A stretch of DNA of 49,958 bases, from positions 1-49,958 of the forward strand of contig PMLC01000074.1 in assembly GCA_003158745.1 (NCBI GenBank), given 5' to 3'. The position numbers and the translations under genes were made by a program. The notes beneath the pieces were generated by a model. That model made no database searches and was not told the DNA's origin. It saw nothing but the letters and a program-made list of their open reading frames with translations. Numbering within the stretch: position 1 is the stretch's first letter; each line of letters starts with the position of its first letter. This DNA comes from Acidobacteriota bacterium (lineage in GTDB: Bacteria; Acidobacteriota; Thermoanaerobaculia; Thermoanaerobaculales; Thermoanaerobaculaceae). Shown one piece after another: positions 7,687-34,589 of the stretch.

Positions 7687-7816
7687 CCCGGACGGGGCCA
7701 AGGGAAGAGGGTAGAAGGCAGAAGTAAGAAGACAAGCGAACGCTCGGCCGCCTGCAATCCGTCGTCTTCCGTCTTCCCTCTTCCCTCTTCCCTCTTACCT
7801 CTTCCGTCTGTCCGGG
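7687..7816. repeat. Convergent-junction hairpin built from 7-nt repeats (copy 1)
   Basis: This fills the gap between two convergent genes. The outer ends pair exactly (CCCGGAC at 7687-7693, GTCCGGG at 7810-7816). The right arm is seven units in perfect 7-nt register at 7765-7813: TCTTCCG, three TCTTCCC, TCTTACC, TCTTCCG, TCTGTCC. The left arm (7702-7736) holds complementary purine units: GGGAAGA, GGGTAGA, AGGCAGA, AGTAAGA, AGACAAG. The RNA from either strand would fold into one long imperfect hairpin, so it may act as a bidirectional terminator or 3'-end protector. Similar structures lie at 18727 and 33934. Confidence 0.8.
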
Positions 7817-7826
7817 TTCTATTGGT

Positions 7827-18719: not shown

Positions 18720-18726
18720 AGCGGCA

Positions 18727-18847
18727 GGTCAAAGGGTAGACGGAAGAAGGCGAAGGTCAAAAGTCAAACGGAAAACGTCAAAGGGACGACACAGACAATC
18801 GCCGCCTTCCCTTTGACCCTTTTACCTCTTCCCTTTTCCTACTTCCC
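18727..18847. repeat. Convergent-junction hairpin built from 7-nt repeats (copy 2)
   Basis: This lies between the ends of convergent lysE-like and HD-GYP genes. The left arm is nine units in unbroken 7-nt register at 18727-18789: GGTCAAA, GGGTAGA, CGGAAGA, AGGCGAA, GGTCAAA, AGTCAAA, CGGAAAA, CGTCAAA, GGGACGA. The right arm (18805-18846) is pyrimidine-rich with the same period and includes TTTGACC at 18812, the exact complement of GGTCAAA, then CTTTTAC, CTCTTCC, CTTTTCC, TACTTCC. The unit GGGTAGA also occurs in copy 1 (7709). Function is unknown; it probably ends transcripts in both directions. Confidence 0.78.
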
Positions 18848-18859
18848 TGAGTTCTCGCC

Positions 18860-32976: not shown

Positions 32977-33921
32977 GTGCCGGGCTCCGATCTGGAGCTG
33001 GAGATAATCGGCCCCGACGGCATTCCCGTCGGGGTCGTTCGTCGTCCACCCCCACCGCCGCAGCGCGTCTGGCTCCACATCCTGCTCTTGGTTCTCACCT
33101 TGGCCTCGACGACGCTCGTCGGCGGAATCGCGTTCGGTGACCTGCCGCAAGGTTTCAAGGCGCACTCAATCTGGGACCTGCTCTTCCACCCCGCCGTCGT
33201 GAGGGCGGGTTTCGAGTTCTCGCTGCCCCTCATCGTGATCCTGCTCGCACACGAGATGGGCCACTACCTCGCCTGCAGGTACCACCGCTTGGACGCGACC
33301 TTGCCTTTCTTCCTGCCGGTTCCGTTCGGGATCGGCACGCTTGGCGCATTCATCCGGATCCGTTCTCCTTTCTTGACCAAGCGGGAGCTGTTCGACGTCG
33401 GCGCTGCGGGGCCGCTGGCCGGGTTTGTGGTCGCGCTTCCCGTTCTGTTTGCAGGCATTGGGCTCTCGGCGCCTGTCGCCGTTCTCCCGAAGGGCGGCGT
33501 GATGATCTTCGGAGAGCCGCTCGCCTTTAAGGCATTGGCGTGGCTGGTTCACCCCGACGTGCCCCCAGGCGGCGATCTCATGCTGCACCCCACAGGCTTC
33601 GCGGCCTGGTTTGGGCTGCTGGTCACGGCACTCAACTTGCTACCGTTCGGGCAGCTCGACGGCGGGCACATCACCTATGCGCTGTTCGGGCGCTGGCAGC
33701 GCCGAGTCGCCTGGCCGCTGCTGGTCGTGTTGATCGTGCTGGGCTTCTGGTGGGCGGGGTGGTGGGTCTGGGCCGTCATCGCGCTCGTCATGCGGGTGCG
33801 GCACCCGTGGATCCCCGATGAGGCGGCCGAACTCGATCCGCGCCGCCGTCTCCTCGGCTGGATCTGCGTCGTCGTCTTTATCCTCTGCTTCACTCCGGAG
33901 CCGATCAAGATCCTCCCCTGA
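32977..33921 (+). CDS. Site-2 protease family (M50) membrane metallopeptidase
   Basis: A 314-residue polytopic inner-membrane zinc protease. The zinc-binding HEMGH (about residues 91-95) lies in a helix followed by YLACRYHRLDATLPFFLPVPF. The third ligand Asp is in NLLPFGQLDGGHI. Six or so transmembrane helices are visible and no PDZ domain is present, as in the compact M50 group. The start is GTG 32977, directly abutting the HU stop codon. The substrate is unknown; such enzymes cut transmembrane segments of regulatory proteins. Its end is followed by the longest of the heptamer hairpins. Confidence 0.88.
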   Translation: MPGSDLELEIIGPDGIPVGVVRRPPPPPQRVWLHILLLVLTLASTTLVGGIAFGDLPQGFKAHSIWDLLFHPAVVRAGFEFSLPLIVILLAHEMGHYLACRYHRLDATLPFFLPVPFGIGTLGAFIRIRSPFLTKRELFDVGAAGPLAGFVVALPVLFAGIGLSAPVAVLPKGGVMIFGEPLAFKALAWLVHPDVPPGGDLMLHPTGFAAWFGLLVTALNLLPFGQLDGGHITYALFGRWQRRVAWPLLVVLIVLGFWWAGWWVWAVIALVMRVRHPWIPDEAAELDPRRRLLGWICVVVFILCFTPEPIKILP

Positions 33922-33933
33922 GCGACGTTTTCC

Positions 33934-34140
33934 CCCACCCTCCCACCCAGTTGACAGTTCACGGTTCACAGTTGACAGTCAAGAACTCCCACCCTCCCAC
34001 CCAGTTGACAGTTGACAGTCCCCCGCCCGCCCGAGGAACCCAAGAGGAAATGTGGCTGTTGGCTTCGGACTGTCAACTGTCGACTGTTGGCCGTTGGCTG
34101 CTGCTTCTGACTATCAACTGTCAACTGTCAACTGTCGACT
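33934..34140. repeat. Convergent-junction hairpin built from 7-nt repeats (copy 3)
   Basis: Left arm: units AGTTGAC, AGTTCAC, GGTTCAC, AGTTGAC, AGTCAAG at 33949-33983, then AGTTGAC twice at 34003-34016. A 26-nt direct repeat, C-rich and ending in CAGTTGACAGTT, precedes each block (33934-33959 and 33988-34013). Right arm: ACTGTCA, ACTGTCG, ACTGTTG, GCCGTTG, GCTGCTG at 34069-34103 and GACTATC followed by three AACTGTC units at 34109-34136. The arms are exact complements over two or more units. The structure runs into the 3' end of dtd and supplies its stop codon at 34128-34130. Confidence 0.88.
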
Positions 34141-34589
34141 TGCTTCTCGGGGCGGTCTTCCCATACGAACGTCACTGGCCCGTCGTTGACGAGTTCGACC
34201 TGCATGTCGGCCCGGAACACACCGGTCGCGACTGCCGCGCCGCGGGCGCGCAACGCCGACACCAGAGCGTCCACGAGAGGCTCCGCCTCCTCGGGGCGCG
34301 CCGCCCCGACGAAGTCCGGCCGGCGGCCGCGGCGGATCGAACCCGCGAGGGTGAACTGCGAGACGACCAGTATCTCGCCGCCGATTTCGTCGAGGCCGCG
34401 GTTCATCGCGCCACGCTCGTCCGAGAACACCCGCAGCGTCGAGAAGCGGTGAGTCGCCCGCTCCACCTGCTCCACTCCATCGCCGGTCTCAACGCCGACG
34501 AGCAACACGAGGCCGCGGCCGATCGCTCCGACGACCCTGCCGTCTACGGTCACCGAGGCGCGGAGGACCCGCTGCACGACGATCCTCAT
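34128..34589 (-). CDS. dtd: D-aminoacyl-tRNA deacylase Dtd
   Basis: Dtd frees tRNAs wrongly charged with D-amino acids or glycine. The 153 residues contain the two active-site cross-subunit motifs: SQFTL in GGEILVVSQFTLAGS and GPVTF in ELVNDGPVTFVWED. The N-terminus MRIVVQRVLRASVTVDG is typical. The start ATG 34589 overlaps the murJ stop as ATGA. The end is odd: after the normal family end (about FVWEDRP) the frame continues through EKQVDS into the heptamer repeats, and the stop TGA lies within an AGTTGAC unit. The tail therefore looks acquired from the repeat. Confidence 0.94.
   Translation of the reverse strand: MRIVVQRVLRASVTVDGRVVGAIGRGLVLLVGVETGDGVEQVERATHRFSTLRVFSDERGAMNRGLDEIGGEILVVSQFTLAGSIRRGRRPDFVGAARPEEAEPLVDALVSALRARGAAVATGVFRADMQVELVNDGPVTFVWEDRPEKQVDS

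Follow-up and report, generated by a model that had tools for sequence, protein, structure and literature searches.

The junction between the convergent genes for an M50 protease and dtd raises the question of why a gap of some 200 nt should be built almost entirely of 7-nt units that face each other as the arms of a large hairpin, and what such an element does there. We analyzed it in a window of 49,958 nt (the whole stretch of DNA under study), which comes from a 3.7-Mb MAG of the Thermoanaerobaculia (Acidobacteriota). Our main reading, to which we assign a probability of roughly 0.55, is that the element belongs to a class of hairpins that occur throughout the genome and cap the 3' ends of genes. 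The parts of the locus, together with two other hairpins of this kind in the window, are as follows; the product of the first gene is presumably a site-2-type protease, judging from the earlier note on this DNA and from knowledge of the family.

32977..33921, plus strand: gene for the M50 site-2-type protease (ORF list; orthologues in 11 relatives)
33934..33948, plus strand: C-rich block 1, CCCACCCTCCCACCC; its complement GGGTGGGAGGGTGGG is a quadruplex motif of four G runs (sequence)
33949..33981, plus strand: outer left arm, about four heptads of type GTYVACA (sequence, inverted-repeat search, fold)
33988..34002, plus strand: C-rich block 2, same letters as block 1 (sequence, inverted-repeat search)
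34003..34021, plus strand: inner left arm, 2.5 heptads (inverted-repeat search, fold)
34022..34066, plus strand: loop of the inner stem (fold)
34067..34087, minus strand: inner right arm, 95% complementary to the inner left arm
34108..34141, minus strand: outer right arm, minus-strand heptads of type GTYVACA, including the dtd stop codon
34128..34589, minus strand: dtd, D-aminoacyl-tRNA deacylase, its C-terminal ...VDS and stop encoded within the array
7700..7812, no strand: second heptad hairpin, family GGAAGAG/GGTAGAA, filling the convergent gap 7687-7826
about 18727..18850, no strand: third heptad hairpin, family GGTCAAA/GGAAGAC, filling the convergent gap 18720-18859

Both arms of the focal element (33934-34141) read as (GTTGACA)n heptamers in opposite orientation, and the gap that they occupy consists of two C-rich blocks and two nested arm pairs of GTYVACA units, with the right side inverted. 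The left-arm units (33949-33981 and 34003-34021) are GTTGACA, GTTCACA and variants; those of the right arm lie on the complement at 34067-34087 and 34108-34141. The earlier note had read AGTTGAC on the left and AACTGTC on the right; the 7-nt units hold, and the two words are one unit read on opposite strands. Its arms were also said to be exact complements: complementarity is high, at 83-100% over inverted repeats of 18-25 nt, and falls short of perfect because the units are degenerate. The 26-nt C-rich block CCCACCCTCCCACCCAGTTGACAGTT is an exact duplicate, as had been noted (33934-33959 and 33988-34013), and all five copies of CAACTGTC in the window (1.2 expected) are within the focal hairpin. 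The hairpin itself is real: besides the inverted repeats, the RNA fold (-90.7 kcal/mol, z of -7.4) and the DNA fold (z of -5.0) were equalled by no shuffle. A search of the window against Rfam gave no match to a known RNA family. The M50 stop codon (33919-33921) is just 5' of the element and the dtd stop codon (34128-34130) falls within the outer right arm; the latter stop comes from the array, and thus the Dtd protein ends in ...VDS out of heptad letters. In the relative G015, the Dtd tail ...VESRELRVES is likewise encoded by an array.

This genome has dozens of hairpins like the focal one; AGTTGACAGT is found in it at 174 sites, mostly as a plus copy followed by a minus copy. In a search that is independent of any word, we compared autocorrelation at lags 4-12 and checked each array for an inverted partner. 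In 372 kb of this genome, a main sample picked around family A sites, there were 62 lag-7 arrays, compared to 0-12 at other lags, and an inverted partner was present for 49 of the 62 versus 10 in the mirror control. The sister genome G001, sampled blindly except for two regions, agrees (13 arrays, 10 of them paired, none in the mirror control); genome statistics rest on sampled stretches. Similar structures elsewhere, on which the earlier note had staked its reading, are thus plentiful, and the autocorrelation and inverted-repeat check that it proposed is borne out on these stretches. Among the printed arrays, at least six unit families of a single genome build a like hairpin:

Family A: GTTGACA
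Family B: GTTGAGA/GTGAAGA/GTTAAGA
Family C: GGTAAGA/GGAAGAC
Family D: GGTCAAA
Family E: GGACCAC or GGTCCGG
Family F: GCTCACA/GCTGACA

Four genomes belonging to other families of this class, sampled over 200 kb in total, gave no heptad arrays. Hairpins of 8-nt period (GGTTCGAA; GAGGAGCG) were also seen, at L110:5876-5914, at L103 ~19613 and in the G001 orthologue of L107:12932-13126, and at times they surround a heptad hairpin concentrically; lag-8 arrays numbered 12 in 372 kb, six of them paired.

The median arm of these elements is 29 nt, about four units, and loops measure about 55-65 nt. Arm orientation was fixed at 32:0 for family A in a first set, and in all 40 elements of a second, overlapping set (A 22:0, B 12:0, D 6:0); the 5' arm was the purine-rich one in 49 of 61 stems, with the reverse in 7. 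The two arms belonged to the same family in 55 of 58 hairpins compared to 26 expected, a figure that is biased upward because stems were selected by complementarity. Within a family, partner arms were no closer to each other than arms of different elements, which weakens the case for selection on exact pairing and for copying from arm to arm. Although template switching is able to create and maintain hairpins (PMC8794818), we reject arm-to-arm template switching as the main upkeep on these grounds. The suggestion that the element grows while keeping its hairpin therefore stands at the level of architecture, with no trace of hairpin-templated copying. The inner loops of family A copies were unrelated to each other, at the level of shuffles. 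In a 422-kb sample, all nine four-run C motifs (a quadruplex on the opposite strand) were followed immediately by a heptad of family A or F.

The position of the arrays was analyzed for gaps of at least 60 nt pooled over ten genomes, with gap classes taken from a home-made codon-based gene caller. Heptad arrays were present in 40 of 116 convergent gaps (34%), 50 of 359 tandem gaps (14%) and 4 of 130 divergent gaps (3%). In tandem gaps, the median distance from the upstream stop to the array is 4.5 nt and that from the array's end to the next start codon is 100 nt, and 39 of the 50 arrays are closer to the upstream stop. The median z of the RNA fold at heptad 3' ends was -2.5 in convergent and -1.5 in tandem gaps, compared to -0.05 at 5' sides; just past the stop, structure was most pronounced at 3' ends with heptads and less so at the remaining 3' ends, and 5' sides had none. 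Stop triplets recurred at +7 or +14 in 14% of array-adjacent stops versus 2% elsewhere, as might be expected if units were chosen for the stop codons that they carry, but purine skew may explain the recurrence in part; those in 5' arms showed a sense excess in 43 elements versus an antisense excess in 14. The tie of the arrays to stop codons argues against a nucleoid or replication landmark, one of the functions that had been suggested.

The other suggested function was a bidirectional terminator, and a 3'-end hairpin fits the position data; a U-tract is what is missing. The focal element has no U-tract terminator site and a T-rich tail lies behind only 5 of 86 stems, so that we reject a canonical intrinsic terminator; simple U-tract terminators are scarce at all gene 3' ends of this group. 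A promoter was rejected, as well: the unit includes TTGACA, yet only one -35/-10 match, a weak one, is present, and divergent gaps are poor in arrays.

Comparison of orthologous junctions separates the word from the architecture. Family letters were assigned by eye from printed sequences. At the dtd/M50 junction, this genome (G000) has family A, G001 and G006 have family C (GGAAGAC type), G005 and G007 have family F (GCTCACA type), and G010 has GGCTTGA, whereas G002 has a gap of 2 nt without an element; G015 has GTCGAGA after dtd. Each heptad-bearing orthologous dtd junction shows a lag-7 peak, with z of 4.3-8.2. Similarly, two adjacent gaps in the 20-kb segment L107 have families B, D and C in G000, G001 and G006, and another gap there has A, A, none, F and F in G000, G001, G006, G007 and G005. 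A junction without heptads may hold a plain GC-rich palindrome at the stop codon, for example in G007. Unit families thus differ at orthologous junctions, while the 7-nt period and the inverted arms are kept: related bacteria have a hairpin at the same gene ends built of a different word, and therefore the architecture outlives the sequence. The lack of a gap and element in some relatives, such as G002, indicates that no single copy is needed. In the same segment, a palindrome GGCCAGGAAGCGC...CCCCTGGCC in a downstream gene's leader (L107:5177-5314 and orthologues) is kept in all five genomes compared.

We propose the following account of the class. A hairpin adjoins the stop codon and sometimes overlies it, and between convergent genes one hairpin would serve both. 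Its RNA copy would fold past the stop codon and mark the transcript end in both directions, through termination without a U-tract, as a barrier to 3' exonucleases, or as insulation behind the terminating ribosome. The likeliest function is thus a bidirectional RNA 3'-end hairpin without a U-tract, which would serve as transcript end or post-stop insulator. Arrays would originate and alter their length through 7-nt slippage, and the growth by slippage assumed in the earlier note is plausible given that the period is exclusively 7 nt and that the number of units varies; unit types might move between loci through short-patch exchange. Given slippage and exchange, selection would preserve a hairpin at the site and not its letters, and the hairpins may be made of heptads simply because 7-nt arrays form easily.

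The arrays could also be a neutral by-product of slippage in 7-nt steps and inversion in unconstrained 3' flanks, with divergent gaps array-poor only through their promoters. We consider this possible, if doubtful: in most genomes, long simple repeats are most often heptamers, for which polymerase slippage has been proposed (Mrazek et al. 2007, as cited in PMC4679880 and PMC4692102), arms are not matched to their partners, and amplification is patchy, with family A in 11 of 396 genomes; however, arrays stay near the stop codon even where gaps are long, random inversion would yield the other order too instead of 40:0, and orthologous sites share the hairpin architecture despite changed units. 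That the hairpin is a ribosome termination structure, which insulates behind the stop and blocks re-initiation of translation and does not end transcription, appears unlikely to us. Across 128 bacteria, 18-65% of genes are known to have such a structure just after the stop (PMC7518266), and stable RNA structure directly behind the stop codon is indeed what we found, together with arrays that begin shortly past it and the sense excess of stop triplets in 5' arms. Conversely, the favored sites are convergent gaps, in which there is no gene for re-initiation, and 26-bp stems with 67-nt loops seem larger than required.

A miniature transposable element (MITE or REPIN) with heptad arms as terminal repeats would account for many dispersed copies with inverted ends, and for matches in a sister species that cover a family B copy from end to end at 75-78% identity. 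This reading is improbable, since inner loops and flanks are little or no closer than shuffles, with no conserved interior between terminal inverted repeats, and different units stand at orthologous sites. We also reject a REP/RAYT link: Y1/RAYT transposases were present in 16 of 16 genomes whether or not heptads were, and 15 of 20 sampled transposase flanks had no array at all. A tandem-repeat assembly artefact, which the earlier note had named as a refuting outcome, has almost no chance of being the explanation; NN does occur inside the repeat in a few copies of this MAG, but the focal copy is free of N, and independent assemblies carry heptad hairpins with other units at the same junctions. 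The interpretation offered in that note is thus partly supported.

The class of hairpins at gene 3' ends can be compared to several known systems. The STRR heptanucleotide repeats of heterocystous cyanobacteria were reportedly described by Mazel et al. in 1990 as direct tandem arrays. Our elements share with them dispersed tandem heptamers with several units per genome, and differ in being mostly inverted pairs, an arrangement that is not known to have been described for the STRR; PMC4692102 mentions three heptamers from Calothrix. The TAACTGA repeats of Beggiatoaceae (MacGregor 2015, PMC4679880) are similarly dispersed intergenic heptamers, patchy across phyla, but are direct repeats just 5' of start codons with one inverted case. 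Like intrinsic terminators whose U trail is reported to be dispensable (PMC8355165), the present elements place a hairpin past the stop codon; unlike those, they have a long stem and a long loop, and termination would be a presumed property here.

The closest match is with the GGGAATC heptamers of Xanthomonas (Rehm et al. 2015, PMC4692102). These have a degenerate 7-nt unit, mostly in four copies, with ~185 intergenic arrays per genome that lie ~28 nt from the upstream ORF, are rare between divergent genes and include about 70-75 inverted convergent pairs; in the sister species, most occupy the corresponding gene junctions but differ in length and sequence, and transcript starts and stops are commoner at quadruplex-forming heptamer arrays (PMC4692102). 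The tandem degenerate units of about four per array (lag-7 excess, median arm of 29 nt), the convergent orientation of two nearby arrays (32:0 and 40:0) and the intergenic position close past the upstream ORF with few arrays in divergent gaps all recur here, and our elements are the same kind as the inverted heptamer arrays of Xanthomonas. However, the quadruplex potential of GGGAATC is within the unit, whereas GTYVACA has its G-run motif in an added C-rich block; Xanthomonas has one unit type per genome compared to at least six families here; and here most arrays are paired and the unit family differs at orthologous sites. New are the phylum, the presence of several unit families in one genome, and a change of unit between orthologous junctions while the architecture stays constant. 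For Thermoanaerobaculia, a search of the open-access literature turned up no work on tandem repeats.

Since 2007, the statistics of bacterial repeats have shown a peak at heptamers that lacks an explanation. Orthologous gene ends separate what is kept (a hairpin past the stop, arm polarity, period) from what drifts (the word), so that slippage, exchange and selection become testable through strain comparison. The class also hints at a way in which transcripts may end in GC-rich bacteria where U-tract terminators are few.

Three consecutive family A units were found in 11 of 396 Acidobacteriota genomes, with high counts in G000 (116), G166 (211) and G168 (67), the latter two belonging to families other than that of G000; family B was found in 19 of 396, with high counts in G047 (254), G322 (162) and G342 (90). 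The degenerate word set of family A, i.e., ACAGT followed by TG, CG, TC, CA or TA, is common to G000, G166 and G168 and thus recurs in distant acidobacterial families. Heptad arrays were also seen in 20-kb pieces around dtd from Bacteroidota, Armatimonadota and others. The patchy spread looks like independent amplification or transfer. We regard as tentative the broader reading of a gene-end hairpin class across several phyla, with period and arms kept and the word rewritten genome-wide, which would imply a process that writes and spreads 7-nt units.

Other phyla have words near those of families B and F (AGTGAAG/AGTTAAG; AGCTGAC/AGCTGAA), some of them in hairpins, and the sources are L203 (Bacteroidetes CTSoil_022), L184 (SM23_31) and L221 (Armatimonadetes). 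A separate dispersed repeat of ~155 nt (GTAGCCGCGCCGCCGAGAGTGGGCC...GGTCCGCTATCGGCGGCGCC; L107:18117-18272 and L319-L325), without a match in an Rfam search, has many copies in each of four genus members searched, and its hairpin varies on both sides (TAGCC-GGA-GGCTA, TACCC-GGA-GGGTA, TGCCT-GGA-AGGCA). Finally, L265 (G001:C33) contains an inverted repeat CTGTCATTGCGAGGAG...CGAAGCAATCTCG, which we take to resemble a palindromic repeat of many unrelated bacteria.
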